NCBI RefSeq assembly: GCF_933509905.1
Contig: NZ_OW150024.1
Location: 1,724,001 to 1,788,000, forward strand
Direction: 5' to 3'
DNA from: Trichlorobacter ammonificans
GTDB lineage: Bacteria > Desulfobacterota > Desulfuromonadia > Geobacterales > Pseudopelobacteraceae
DNA length: 64,000 nucleotides
The notes under the pieces were generated by a model. The model did not search any database, was not told the DNA's origin, and saw nothing but the letters and a program-made list of their open reading frames with translations. Positions 35,221 to 39,519 of this stretch are shown piece by piece (position 1 is the stretch's first letter; each line of letters opens with the position of its first letter). A program made the position numbers and the translations under genes.

Positions 35221-35280
35221 ATGGTCAACACAACAACCGAAAAAAAACAGAAGGACGGTATCCCGAGCTGGGCAGCCTAG
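35221..35280 (+). CDS. Tiny open frame (19 residues), uncertain
   Basis: ATG to TAG gives MVNTTTEKKQKDGIPSWAA. Upstream GAGAG is a poor ribosome binding site. It lies in a 227-bp gap between guaB and a ribbon-helix-helix gene, whose stop it overlaps by 3 bp tail to tail. The composition (Thr/Lys then a Trp near the end) is not obviously random, but there is no family I recognise and chance cannot be excluded. Confidence 0.2.
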   Translation: MVNTTTEKKQKDGIPSWAA

Positions 35281-35465
35281 CTGGAGGGCTCCTTTACGCC
35301 GTCGCGGTCATCGGGAATGCCGGCAAAGCGCCGCATTGCCTCACGCATGATTTCAGACATGCTCATATTCGTCCGCTCCATGATTTCGTTGAGATATTCC
35401 CGTTCCTGTGCGCTGATCCGCATGGAAATGACATTATAGCGTGGTTTTTCGATCATTCTGCCCAT
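35277..35465 (-). CDS. Small ribbon-helix-helix (CopG-type) protein
   Basis: 62 residues. A beta-strand with YNVISMRIS is followed by two helices (AQEREYLNEIMER and SMSEIMREAMRRF), the ribbon-helix-helix DNA-binding pattern. Start may be the ATG at 35465 or 35456; neither has a good ribosome binding site. No toxin gene is next to it. Targets are unknown, with guaBA and the small-gene region on either side. Confidence 0.7.
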   Translation of the reverse strand: MGRMIEKPRYNVISMRISAQEREYLNEIMERTNMSMSEIMREAMRRFAGIPDDRDGVKEPSS

Positions 35466-35630: not shown

Positions 35631-35732
35631 TCAGTGCCGGATATTCTTGTTATCCCTGGCAGACCCATAGCAATAGAATTGAATTCCAATCACCACTACC
35701 AGTACCACCACTACTGCTCCCAGAATATACAT
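35631..35732 (-). CDS. 33-residue single-span membrane peptide
   Basis: ATG 35732 with GGGGAGG about 10 nt upstream. Residues 2-18 are strongly hydrophobic (YILGAVVVVLVVVIGIQF), followed by a short polar tail with Cys19 and basic residues. The C-terminus is probably cytoplasmic or periplasmic depending on insertion. It begins 40 bp after the Cys-rich small gene on the same strand, probably on the same sigma54-driven transcript. I know no named family. A frame extension upstream to 35843 exists but has no start signals. Confidence 0.5.
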   Translation of the reverse strand: MYILGAVVVVLVVVIGIQFYCYGSARDNKNIRH

Positions 35733-35772
35733 ATGCGCTTTTCCTCCCCTGGAATATTCAGTGCCATGCTGT

Positions 35773-36000
35773 TCACCCTCGTGGTGCCGACTGTTCTCCC
35801 TCCCCACTGGCATCTTTCGACCGGTAGATACTGCAGGCGGCATAGTCGTCGGCGCAAAACAGGAGCATCTTTTGGATGTTCTTGCTGGAAATGTTCATGC
35901 AGTAGCATTCGGGAAACGGAGCCTTCAGAAACCTGCACATCAGCGCGGCTCTCTCTGCAATGATATCCGTTGCCTTCAACAGAGTACCGGTGGTGGCCAT
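35773..36000 (-). CDS. Small Cys-rich protein of unknown function (75 residues)
   Basis: ATG 36000 is chosen because the sigma54-type promoter at 36075-36090 should start RNA near 36064, excluding the open frame further upstream; ATG 36015 is an alternative. Five Cys occur at about 22, 32, 34, 49 and 56 in the pattern C-x9-CxC-x14-C-x6-C, within MCRFLKAPFPECYCMNISS and LLFCADDYAACSIYR. This could bind a metal or cluster. Similar short Cys proteins occur in Geobacter as far as I recall, but without function. It is followed by the membrane peptide. Confidence 0.6.
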   Translation of the reverse strand: MATTGTLLKATDIIAERAALMCRFLKAPFPECYCMNISSKNIQKMLLFCADDYAACSIYRSKDASGEGEQSAPRG

Positions 36001-36074
36001 GATCGTTTCCCGCATGCGGCGCAGAGCGCAGTGATAGATGCAGCTATCCGAGACTGCATCATTCAAATGACGAC

Positions 36075-36090
36075 AGCAACAATGGTGCCA
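36075..36090 (-). promoter_or_regulatory. Sigma54 (-24/-12) promoter
   Basis: Minus strand TGGCAC (36090-36085), 5 nt, TTGCT (36079-36075). GG and GC are exactly 10 nt apart, and the only departure from the extended consensus is C for G after TGGCAC. The predicted start is near 36064. A sigma54-activator gene ends 126 bp upstream. Confidence 0.75.
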
Positions 36091-36174
36091 CATCACAACA
36101 TTTCGATTTTATTGGGGATTACTTCGAAGGACTTTTAACAGGGGTGATCAAAACAACCAGAGCGGAACAACAGG

Positions 36175-36191
36175 GGGTACGCAAAATACCC
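36175..36191. promoter_or_regulatory. Possible enhancer half-site pair for the sigma54 activator
   Basis: GGGTA and TACCC flank 7 nt, about 85-100 bp upstream of the -24 element, the usual enhancer distance. Short and unproven; it could equally be the end of the regulator transcript. Confidence 0.25.
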
Positions 36192-36215
36192 ACCATCGAC
36201 AGTAAGGCTCCCCAC

Positions 36216-37568
36216 TCACGACGAGCGGAGGTGATAACGGGCAAGCATCCGCTTGAAGCGGCCGTACTCCACCGCCAGCAGCCGGGCCGCCTCCATCTTC
36301 CTGCCGCCGGTCGCCTCAAGAGCATGGAGAATAGCCGTGCGTTCCAGCTCCGCCAGGGTCTGTACCGGCTGCACAGGGGCAGTCACGACACCGTCACCCT
36401 GCAAGGCGGCGGCAAGATCGGCGGCATGCAGGATATCGCCGGCAAAAAGGGCGACGCGCTTCATCACGCTCTTCAGCTCACGGATATTGCCGGGCCAGGT
36501 GTGCCGACGCAGCAGCAGCTGGGCATCGGCGGAAATGCGGGGAGGCGTTCTGTCCAGCTCTCGCGAGACATTGATGAGAAAACCACGGGCAAGCAACACC
36601 ACATCCTCGCCCCGCTCCCGCAGCGGCGGGAGGGTGATGACCAAGTCCCCCAGGCGATAGTAGAGATCTTCCCGGAAGCGCCCGCTACGGGCTTCTTCCT
36701 GCAGATTGCGGTTACTGGCGGCGATGATCCGCGTATTAACCGTCACCTGGCGGGTGCCCCCGACGGGAAAGAAGCGTTTCTGCTCCACGGCATGCAGAAT
36801 CTTGGCCTGAATGGCCGGAGAAGCGCAGTCGATGTCGTCCAGGAACAGCGTCCCGTCGTCGGCCTCCTCGAACAGTCCGCTTCTCGCGGCCACGGCGCCG
36901 GTGAAAGCGCCCCGGACATGGCCGAACAACTGGCTTTCCACCAGCGATTCCGGTATTGAGCCCACGGAAACCGTCACGAAAGGGTGGTGCTTGCGCCGGC
37001 TCAAATCATGGATCAGCGCCGCCAGGTGGGATTTGCCGGCACCGGTTTCTCCCTGGATGATCACGGAAAAATCGGTGGCGGCAATGCGGCGGGCCTGCTG
37101 GATGATCTGCTGCATGGCCGGACTGTCCCCCAGCAGGGCCTCAAGCGATGCCTGTTCCCGGCAGCGGGCCTGTTCCAGCTCCATCTGCTGCAGGATCGGC
37201 CGGGCCACCTGCATAATGGTTTCGATGAGCTGCCGGCAGTCCAGCGGTTTGCGCACGTAGGCCGCCACTCCCAGTTCGATCGCCTTCAGCAGAAAACCGG
37301 CCTCGGTGAAGGCGGTACTGAGAATGACCGGCGTGGCCGGGGCCAGCTCCCGGATGCCGCGGGTCATCTCCAGGCCGTCCATGACCGGCATCATGATATC
37401 GCTGATCACCACGGCGGGGTGTTCCTGCCGGAAACGGTCCAGTCCCTCCTTGCCGTTGGCGGCGGTCAGCACCTGCTCGAAATGCATTGCAAGGACGATA
37501 CGAATCCGCTCCCGCAGGTCCGGCTCATCCTCGACGTACAGCAGCGTCAGCGGTATCTTCTCAGACAT
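36216..37568 (-). CDS. NtrC-family response regulator (REC, AAA+, Fis HTH)
   Basis: 450 residues. The receiver has phospho-acceptor Asp57 in VVISDIMMP. The AAA+ domain has Walker A GETGAGKS (173-180) and an intact GAFTGA loop (220-225), needed to contact sigma54. The C-terminal Fis-type helix-turn-helix contains ALEATGGRKMEAARLLAVEYGRFKRM. It overlaps the kinase gene by 8 bp. A strong sigma54 promoter sits 126 bp downstream on the same strand, so the neighbouring small genes are its most obvious target. Confidence 0.95.
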   Translation of the reverse strand: MSEKIPLTLLYVEDEPDLRERIRIVLAMHFEQVLTAANGKEGLDRFRQEHPAVVISDIMMPVMDGLEMTRGIRELAPATPVILSTAFTEAGFLLKAIELGVAAYVRKPLDCRQLIETIMQVARPILQQMELEQARCREQASLEALLGDSPAMQQIIQQARRIAATDFSVIIQGETGAGKSHLAALIHDLSRRKHHPFVTVSVGSIPESLVESQLFGHVRGAFTGAVAARSGLFEEADDGTLFLDDIDCASPAIQAKILHAVEQKRFFPVGGTRQVTVNTRIIAASNRNLQEEARSGRFREDLYYRLGDLVITLPPLRERGEDVVLLARGFLINVSRELDRTPPRISADAQLLLRRHTWPGNIRELKSVMKRVALFAGDILHAADLAAALQGDGVVTAPVQPVQTLAELERTAILHALEATGGRKMEAARLLAVEYGRFKRMLARYHLRSS

Positions 37569-39519
37569 CGTTCTCCCCGCCCCGCCGCGCTTCCCGCGGC
37601 AGCTCGATCCTGAACTGCGTTCCTTCCGGCGAACTGGTGAAACAGAGCCGTCCCCCCATGCTCTCCTCGATGATCAGCCGCGACATGTACAGCCCGATGC
37701 CGGTCCCCTTGCCTTCCGACTTGCTGGTGAAGTAGGGATCAAACACCTTGTCGGCGTACTCGGACGGTATGCCGCAGCCGTTGTCATCCACCTCCACCAC
37801 CACCCAGTCCTCGGCAGCGGAAAGCGCGATCGTCACCCGGCCGCACAACGGTGTCGTCCCATTCCTCTCCTGGCCGGCGACAGACCGCATCCGCTCCACC
37901 ACAGCGTCGAAGGCGTTACTGACCAGATTGAGCAGGGCCTGCTTGAACTCGTTTTGATACCCTCTGATCGTGAGACGGCCGTGCCCTGCCTGCGCGACAA
38001 TCTCCAGGGTGACATTCGAGTTGGCAAACTGGGCCGCTACCAGTTGCAAGACCTCTCCCACCTTCTCGGTCACGTCGAACCGTTCAACCACCTTTTCCGG
38101 ACTGAAAAAGTTTCTGAAATCCTCGATGGTATCGGACATATAGTAGAGCTGCTTCTGGGCATCGGCCTCGGCCTTTTCCAGGAAACGTTCGTCCAGACAG
38201 CGATGTTCCCAAGCCATCCGGAGACTCTGGATGGTTGCCCCCAGGGTCGCCAGCGGTTGTCGCCACTGGTGCGCAATGGCTCCGATCATCTCCCCCATGG
38301 CGGCCAGGCGGATATGGCGGGCCAGCAACCGCTCATGGCTGACTCTCCGCTCCGTCTCTTCCGCCACCCGCTTCAGCAGATCCCGGTTCAGGTCGCTCAA
38401 CTCCTGCTCCCGCGCCGCCAGTTTACGGGCCATTTCGTCGAAGGCGCGTCCCAGTTCTCCCAGCTCGCCGCCTCCCACCAGATCAGCGACCCGCACCTGC
38501 AGCTCCCCCTCGGCAAGCCGGGCCGAAGCCTCCTGCAGCCGCTTCACCCGCTGCACAAAACACACGTTACCGATCACCAGAGTCAGAACGAAAGCGGCCA
38601 GCAGCACCGTCGCCAGCAGCCCCATGTTGACCAGTTCGGCCTGTCGGGCTTTCCTCATGACCCCGTCCAGGGGGACACTGGCACAGACGTAGAGGTAGGG
38701 GTCCGTTTCATGGGGAAGGCGCAGAACGCGATAGGAGATGATCCGCCGGTCGTCCTGGTCCGTTTCGTCGAAGAAGGTATCACGATCTTTGGCGGGATCG
38801 CCGGCCATCCGACGCAACAGTGCCGGCTTCAGCGGCGTGCCGACGAATCGTTCCGGCTCCTGGCTGCTGAAAACAATGGTACCGTTGCGATCCACGATGG
38901 TTAGTTGCGATTTTTTGGGCAACTCGGTGGTGGTGAGCAGGCGACGGACCAGGCGCTCGAAATCGAGATTGGCGGAGATCACCCCTTGCCACTCCCCCTG
39001 CTCGTTTTCGATGGGATAGCCGAAGCCGATGGTGTGCTTCACCGACAGCCTGCCCACCACGTACTCGCCGGATGAAAAGGCTCCACTCTGTCGGGTCGCC
39101 CGGAACATCAGCCGCTCACGCAGGGAAAAGGGCTGCCCCATCGGCAGGCCGGAAGCCCAGACCATCCCATCGCGGTCCGTGACCACGATATTGCCGAACT
39201 GGGGATTTTTCCTGAGAATTTCCCCCAGCAAGCTATTGACGTCGGCAACCTTGCGGTTCCTGATGTCCGGAAGCTGCGCCAGCACGACCAGCAACTGCTC
39301 GGCATTTCCGACCTGATTGTACTGCTCGTTGGCGATCAGGGTCACCAGCCGGCGGGCATCGCGGTTCCCCTTGCGGATCGCCTCCTGGCGCTGCACGACC
39401 CCGGAATGCAGGATCAGCGCCAGCGCCGGCAGGGAAAGCAGCAGCGCCAGCAGCAGCAGGTGCGTCCGCAGCGAAAGCGAGAGCAGTCGGGTGCGCAGGG
39501 CGGCAATGGCCTGATTCAT
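37561..39519 (-). CDS. Membrane sensor histidine kinase (dCache, HAMP, HisKA, HATPase)
   Basis: 652 residues: TM1 (about 18-38), a periplasmic dCache-like domain (about 45-290), TM2 (about 298-320), HAMP, then a coiled coil and HisKA with His417 in AHQWRQPL. HATPase ends the protein and no receiver is fused. It is the cognate partner of the overlapping NtrC-type regulator. Ligand unknown. It starts 40 bp after an M42 peptidase gene on the same strand. Confidence 0.93.
   Translation of the reverse strand: MNQAIAALRTRLLSLSLRTHLLLLALLLSLPALALILHSGVVQRQEAIRKGNRDARRLVTLIANEQYNQVGNAEQLLVVLAQLPDIRNRKVADVNSLLGEILRKNPQFGNIVVTDRDGMVWASGLPMGQPFSLRERLMFRATRQSGAFSSGEYVVGRLSVKHTIGFGYPIENEQGEWQGVISANLDFERLVRRLLTTTELPKKSQLTIVDRNGTIVFSSQEPERFVGTPLKPALLRRMAGDPAKDRDTFFDETDQDDRRIISYRVLRLPHETDPYLYVCASVPLDGVMRKARQAELVNMGLLATVLLAAFVLTLVIGNVCFVQRVKRLQEASARLAEGELQVRVADLVGGGELGELGRAFDEMARKLAAREQELSDLNRDLLKRVAEETERRVSHERLLARHIRLAAMGEMIGAIAHQWRQPLATLGATIQSLRMAWEHRCLDERFLEKAEADAQKQLYYMSDTIEDFRNFFSPEKVVERFDVTEKVGEVLQLVAAQFANSNVTLEIVAQAGHGRLTIRGYQNEFKQALLNLVSNAFDAVVERMRSVAGQERNGTTPLCGRVTIALSAAEDWVVVEVDDNGCGIPSEYADKVFDPYFTSKSEGKGTGIGLYMSRLIIEESMGGRLCFTSSPEGTQFRIELPREARRGGENDV

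Follow-up and report, generated by a model that had tools for sequence, protein, structure and literature searches.

What might a histidine kinase and its sigma54-type regulator control when the promoter just past them leads into nothing but short frames? The question is raised by positions 35,631 to 39,519 of a 64,000-nucleotide stretch of Trichlorobacter ammonificans DNA (contig NZ_OW150024.1, positions 1,724,001 to 1,788,000; the whole stretch is called the window here). An earlier note on this DNA had read the locus as a self-contained sensory circuit, in which a kinase and an NtrC-type regulator act through a sigma54 promoter on a cysteine-rich protein and a membrane micropeptide. Comparison with related genomes supports that circuit interpretation, judged from sequence, and we consider the wiring as far as the first small gene, which encodes a five-cysteine protein that we call CYC, very probable.

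A recurrent kinase, regulator, promoter and CYC order

All genes of the locus lie on the minus strand. The sensor histidine kinase (652 aa, 37561..39519) carries dCache_1, HAMP, HisKA and HATPase_c domains, the HisKA match in the domain library scan being 25.3 bits, under the cut-off of 26.9. The NtrC-type response regulator (450 aa, 36216..37568) has a receiver, a Sigma54_activat AAA+ domain with an intact GAFTGA motif and a Fis helix-turn-helix (HTH) domain, and its gene overlaps that of the kinase, as the earlier note had described, the overlap being 8 nt long. By its domains (HisKA/HATPase in the kinase; receiver, GAFTGA AAA+ and HTH in the regulator) the pair is a sigma54-dependent two-component system of the NtrC/bEBP type. 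The sequence TGGCAC-N5-TTGCT (TGGCACCATTGTTGCT, 36075..36090, minus strand), likewise correctly pointed out before, lies 125 nt beyond the regulator stop as a -24/-12 promoter with GG-N10-GC spacing. It is an exact consensus match and the sole exact TGGCACN5TTGCW match in the 64 kb window, and the promoter score of this gap exceeded those of all 200 dinucleotide shuffles. Since 35 matches with up to two mismatches to the promoter pattern were expected in the window and 35 were found, what counts as evidence is only the exact match together with its recurrence. Transcription would start near 36064 and run first through CYC (75 aa, 35773..36000, minus strand) and then through a single-span membrane micropeptide (33 aa, 35631..35732, minus strand).

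The recurrence of this arrangement was determined from loci gathered by CYC sequence alone, which gave 76 CYC matches in 74 regions, the window excluded, with a few repeated or near-repeated copies among them (e.g., L047/L048 and L066/L067/L068; L and G numbers are our handles for loci and genomes). Neighbours on the same strand within 900 nt were kept, 46 downstream and 58 upstream. The downstream scan covered 43 of the 46 (left out were a duplicate at L051 and two very long neighbours, L060 and L083, parts of which were scanned separately) and the upstream scan 57 of the 58 (a second L089 row was dropped). The results showed a Sigma54_activat domain in 33 of the 57 upstream neighbours and a receiver in 35. 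Approached from the other side, 30 regulators of the window regulator's clade (P0003), its own included, were found in 25 of 76 genomes (E <=1e-112), and CYC lies downstream on the same strand for 25 of the 30, or 24 of 29 when the window's own is left aside; the kinase is ahead of the regulator also in many related loci. The gaps between regulator and CYC scored at least 14.5 in 23 of 25 cases on a -24/-12 weight table, which is approximate so that its scores are relative, and for 22 of the 25 gaps no more than 1% of 200 dinucleotide shuffles scored as high. A strong promoter lies within 620 nt of 44 of the 77 CYC copies, that of the window being counted among them. A tree of 43 regulators places 34 rows across a 100/100 branch from seven tested paralogues of the window genome, a branch that also sets the window regulator apart from them, with L058 and L076 grouping with the paralogues; the rows labelled 'cyc' include five regulators without an adjacent CYC (L139, L142, L146, L153 and L156), L061 and L155 are one gene, and a long-branch warning applies to rows including L064, L087 and L094. 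Outside the family, the same order and regulator type were found at L201, L202, L204, L206, L207 and L210. At L217, L218 and L219, from other classes or families, a kinase, a sigma54 activator and CYC follow in the same order, with an activator that is more distant (at L217 of PAS type, with no receiver found), and at L205 the kinase and regulator are placed after CYC. Both small frames are conserved and the kinase, regulator, sigma54 promoter and CYC order recurs, so that the absence of conservation which the earlier note would have taken as a refutation is not what is seen.

CYC copies of a second subtype have a promoter of their own placement, starting about 30 nt ahead of the chosen CYC ATG (L071, L074, L079, L080, L082, L085, L088 and L091), which implies an almost leaderless message. 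At two further loci an HU/IHF-like gene stands between promoter and CYC, namely L134 (G007:C150; Bac_DNA_binding, E 3.4e-26) and L135 (G009:C77; similarity by eye), and its product could itself assist sigma54 promoters.

A predicted two-site enhancer

Side-by-side comparison of the gaps between regulator and CYC revealed a repeated element, CATTTTGCNYACCC, and the window gap holds two sites like it on the minus strand. Site 1, TATTTTGCGTACCC (36175..36188), has one mismatch to CATTTTGCNYACCC, begins at -98 from the first base of the -24 element and sits within the inverted repeat GGGTA-N7-TACCC. Site 2, TGTTTTGATCACCC (36142..36155), has three mismatches, begins at -65 and lies 33 nt from site 1. 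Such a pair occurred in none of 2000 shuffles of the window region. Defining a pair as two sites with at most three mismatches each, starting at -97 to -99 and at -65 to -67 from the first base of the -24 element, we found CATTTTGCNYACCC-like sites 32-33 nt apart at 18 of the 44 strong-promoter CYC copies, the window included, and at none of 4400 shuffles of the same regions. By CYC sequence, 15 of these 18 belong to the window's subtype. The pair is also present in other families (L202, L203, L204, L207 and L208), and at two of these loci, L203 and L208, promoter and site pair occur with no regulator recognised within the fetched region. By sequence, then, conserved predicted enhancer sites lie upstream of the promoter. 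A spacing of 33 bp is about three helical turns, as it should be if two activator dimers bind to the same face of the helix.

Scanning ten genomes, selected for having the regulator or a close locus, yielded 11 exact CATTTTGCNYACCC copies in seven of them, of which ten were at the module and one elsewhere (G042); two of the ten at the module were in G014, next to a regulator that lacks a clear CYC. A reversed control pattern gave one match across the ten genomes, and the window genome has no exact copy, its own sites being inexact. The pattern was derived from some of the same loci later counted; what is informative here is the shuffle result, the constancy of the spacing and how rarely the site occurs elsewhere in the ten genomes. 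Because ten of the 11 exact sites are at the module, the regulator seems to act on few targets. A related but distinct site, read by eye as roughly ACTATCnnTTTTnnnTAYC, occurs in the second subtype. As a sequence pattern, the enhancer code looks new.

CYC and the micropeptide

The window contains the 75-residue protein that the earlier note had picked out, with its cysteines arranged as C22-x9-C32-x-C34-x14-C49-x6-C56. We define the core of the CYC family as C-x9-CxC-x14-C-x6-C with PFxxCYC and CxIY, which the window protein fits. In an alignment of 53 members C22, C32, C49 and C56 are invariant and C34 is kept in at least 90%, and a block of about 43 residues makes up the conserved part. A single-sequence search of 76 genomes of the same family gave matches at E <=1 in 53 genomes, with 60 matches in 35 of the 76 reaching 1e-3, eight of them in the single contig of G052. 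With a profile, matches were obtained in 71 of 141 genomes of the order (E <=1e-3), a count that takes in a divergent sister group. In a sample of the phylum, 20 of 395 genomes had matches at 0.01. Between the window protein and its nearest relative, L039, nonsynonymous differences (pN 0.29) are fewer per site than synonymous ones (pS 0.78); the L041-L045 pair is less clear (pN 0.06, pS 0.15). The ATG at 36000 has a ribosome site that is only modest, and an alternative in-frame ATG lies at 36012. No signal sequence was seen by eye. No model in Pfam or NCBIfam matched CYC at E <=1, the best Pfam match of the 53 members (a bromelain inhibitor model, E 0.0065, in 2 of the 53) is not credible, and the best PDB match had an E of 0.39. 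A known family was accordingly rejected, there being no credible Pfam, NCBIfam or PDB relative, and CYC is a family without a name in Pfam or NCBIfam that looks new. The window genome also encodes a second CYC (G000:C1:1385475-1385624, L093), near genes for a methyl-accepting chemotaxis protein (MCP), CheW and a LuxR-type response regulator, and a member of the sister group (G000:C1:1698778-1698915, L215), with a -24/-12-like sequence TGGCGCGATCAATGCT 55 nt upstream of its core.

The 33-residue micropeptide, with one membrane span, was also found as described, behind the good ribosome site GGGGAGGAAAAGCGCAT. Across ten aligned micropeptides of about 30 residues and one span, Q18 and Y22 are invariant. 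They follow CYC at 9 of 60 surveyed CYC copies (the window, L039, L041, L042, L044, L045, L050 with two, L053 and L059). Substitutions between the window and L039 (pN 0.34, pS 0.70) and between L053 and L059 (pN 0.06, pS 0.77) again favour synonymous change, the L041-L045 pair (pN 0.11, pS 0.19) being less clear, and on these patterns both small frames look selected as proteins. Chance frames were rejected as an explanation on conservation and the substitution pattern. A profile search of the 76 genomes gave ten strong matches, all at known loci and identical with the rows that built the profile. Weaker matches at L229, L231 and L232, with good ribosome sites and no CYC found nearby, look like true relatives. 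Since the micropeptide accompanies so few CYC copies, the constant output of the circuit is CYC, which the micropeptide joins in this lineage. The notion of a self-contained circuit is favoured by a site pair found almost only at the module. In the second subtype larger genes come after CYC, so that the circuit is not always closed, and 33 of the 77 CYC copies lack a strong promoter within 620 nt.

After the micropeptide comes a gene for a 62-aa ribbon-helix-helix protein (35277..35465, minus strand; RHH_1 21.2 bits, cut-off 20.5), with a homologous frame at the same place in L039; it is possibly a later member of the CYC transcript. An Rfam scan of the window gave no matches at gathering scores, a search of a plasmid collection gave no match, and terminator and sigma70 scans were uninformative.

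A possible signalling role and its alternatives

The genes around CYC offer clues to its role. An MCP gene lies downstream of CYC at L073, L086, L217 and L219, and a chemoreceptor-like gene interrupted by the contig end at L211; MCP and CheW genes are upstream of the second CYC of the window genome; a PAS-GGDEF gene follows CYC at L213, and a kinase is ahead of it at L214. CYC shares its reading frame with a HisKA_3-type kinase at L063, and that kinase also gave partial matches to NCBIfam MctS and UhpB. The sister group (CPFYGKNDDYCDVGCGYIS...) is by Pfam in one frame with HisKA plus MFS (L109), with MFS (L105) and with YaaH (L119). By eye, L120 and L124 likewise have the sister cysteine domain in one frame with partners of the MFS, HisKA plus MFS, or YaaH type. 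Together, these neighbours and fusions suggest a cytoplasmic signalling module. Downstream of the second subtype the genes are of other kinds: multihaem cytochromes at L080 and L069 by Pfam, beta-barrel-like genes at L080, L071 and L079 by eye, collagen-like or DUF4347 surface proteins at L083, L064 and L060, and chemoreceptors too, so that by gene content this subtype is possibly a sigma54-controlled electron conduit. Judged by gene size, cytochrome genes also follow CYC at L079, L081 and L091, and tatA-like frames were seen by eye after CYC at L058, L062, L067 and L068.

From the gene order, the promoter, the site pair, the conservation and coding pattern of both products, the recurrent signalling-gene neighbourhood of CYC and its one in-frame kinase, we infer signal, phosphotransfer, binding of the regulator to DNA, transcription, location, cofactor and feedback as follows. 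A periplasmic signal would act on the dCache kinase, and the phosphorylated NtrC-type regulator would bind the two sites about 33 bp apart just beyond its own gene and fire the single sigma54 promoter. The output would be CYC as a small soluble cysteine protein plus, in this lineage, the one-span micropeptide. CYC could then serve as a metal-, Fe-S- or thiol-based cytoplasmic signalling accessory that feeds back by modulating a signalling partner, the neighbouring kinase being the likeliest candidate, while the micropeptide may act at the inner membrane within the same loop. Taken whole, a locally wired circuit with a CYC accessory is the best explanation we can offer, and we lean towards it slightly; the narrower proposal that CYC is a signalling accessory that feeds back is put forward tentatively. 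In its broadest form, which we consider somewhat less likely than not, the proposal casts CYC as a general signalling domain that is new and belongs to the Geobacterales and wider relatives. It would be a small cytoplasmic cysteine module, based on metal, Fe-S or thiol, that would work with histidine kinases, chemoreceptors and, in the weakly similar sister group, membrane transporters, under dedicated kinase-regulator-sigma54 control via a fixed two-site enhancer.

Several observations weigh against this proposal. Five of the 30 clade regulators have no recognisable CYC; the contig edge is reached downstream of the regulator at L153 and the best promoter-like site falls inside a coding frame at L146, while L139, L142 and L156 retain a -24/-12-like site (15.0 to 16.0), which must drive something else. 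The gaps at L138 and L143 have weak promoters, 33 CYC copies have no strong one as counted above, and eleven regions (L040, L043, L046, L047, L048, L051, L052, L055, L058, L062 and L066) have no same-strand activator directly upstream. The best promoter-like sites at L217-L219 are without the canonical -12 GC, leaving sigma54 control unsupported there. The site pair is missing at 26 of the 44 strong-promoter copies, and window site 2 taken alone is a poor match. The AlphaFold2 model of CYC, built from 8 sequences, is unusable (mean pLDDT 44.5), so the proposed metal or Fe-S binding draws on cysteine spacing alone, and a cytoplasmic location is judged from the reading by eye and the fusion. MCPsignal is the commonest downstream family, yet accounts for just 4 of 43 neighbours; the Pfam match of the L063 kinase is marginal (24.2 bits against a cut-off of 24); and the sister group, the one with the transporter fusions, resembles CYC only weakly (E 5e-4 to 0.04). 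CYC may equally be an effector made alongside electron-transfer genes.

Such an effector would be a small carrier or buffer, redox- or metal-based, that an envelope or respiration sensor calls up when needed, and we regard this as possible but rather unlikely. It would suit the cysteine-rich composition, the cytochrome, barrel-like and surface-protein genes led by the second subtype, the tatA-like frames and the FAD_binding_2 flavoprotein genes within about 4 kb upstream of some CYC copies (L040, L046 and L066), but the in-frame kinase and the nearby chemoreceptors, CheW, PAS-GGDEF and kinases fit signalling better, and no carrier family of Pfam, ferredoxins included, matched CYC. Were CYC and the micropeptide mere first small genes of sigma54 operons, a leader or by-product, with the regulator's important targets elsewhere, one could understand why several gene kinds come after second-subtype promoters, why L139 and L142 retain promoter and sites with no CYC, and why in G015 a clade regulator (L146) and CYC (L091) are on separate contigs. 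The concentration of exact sites at the module, the constancy of CYC while later genes vary and its substitution pattern make this improbable in our view.

We give still less credence to CYC as a modified peptide precursor, similar to a ribosomally synthesised and post-translationally modified peptide, or as a secreted signal in place of a folded domain. What is conserved is the block of about 43 residues and not a leader, no common maturase appeared in the neighbour tallies (the first 25 families each, upstream and downstream), and CYC shares a frame with the L063 kinase, although the protein is small and cysteine-rich and one locus, L058, has a radical SAM gene upstream. That promoter and small frames are chance features, as the shortness of the frames and the finding of just as many degenerate promoter matches as expected might suggest, is next to negligible: recurrence, promoter scores, the site pair and the substitution pattern contradict it.

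The earlier note had known of no described system of this form. The comparison with ZraPSR of Escherichia coli gives the wiring a precedent; the CYC family and the enhancer code do look new. The zraP gene is divergent from zraSR, and we know of no micropeptide in ZraPSR. The direct targets found by ChIP-exo are zraSR, zraP and mgtA (PMC7657598), and ZraP is a periplasmic chaperone (PMC7657598) described as a repressor of ZraSR (PMC7657598, PMC10848872). ZraPSR is the closest known wiring, with a kinase, a sigma54 regulator and very few direct targets that include a small accessory protein; CYC differs from the periplasmic ZraP in lying downstream on the same strand, in having no signal sequence by eye and in matching no known family. 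The window regulator scored 303 bits against the ZraR model NF007689 (cut-off 760) and the window kinase 78.6 bits against the ZraS model NF007688 (cut-off 479), neither reaching its cut-off. In Geobacter sulfurreducens, enhancer-binding protein genes adjoin RpoN promoters (pilR-pilA, dcuB, fdnG to tatA), and for the dcuB operon a hypothetical protein, GSU2750, is listed in the preceding position (PMC2725144). These operons are like the window in placing an activator gene beside an RpoN promoter, and the available text of that source describes no kinase-regulator-CYC module (PMC2725144). Similarly, in the Desulfovibrio sigma54 regulome the response regulator DVU0619 is co-localised with the conserved sigma54 operon DVU0617-DVU0616 and has a predicted binding motif; the linkage of regulator and operon is like that in the window, and the available text mentions no five-cysteine target family (PMC4641369). 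Among titles and abstract openings of open-licence PMC literature, no description of the kinase-regulator-CYC module or its site code was found. WhiB-like proteins and NreB use small Fe-S or thiol cysteine clusters in gene regulation or kinase input, with a cysteine spacing that differs from that of CYC. The form of the circuit is known, then, while its effector family is unnamed and its site code was not found in the open-licence PMC literature.

For the family, these data mean that an orphan small-protein family gains a predicted trigger, a cognate regulator, a DNA-site code and candidate partners. Should CYC turn out to be an input module of the redox or metal kind, the way in which sensory kinases and chemoreceptors are coupled to redox state in metal-respiring bacteria would become easier to explain. 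In the second subtype, cytochrome genes resembling parts of extracellular electron transfer stand behind the same promoter type and, if the proposal is true, this subtype would tie periplasmic sensing to outer-membrane electron-conduit genes.

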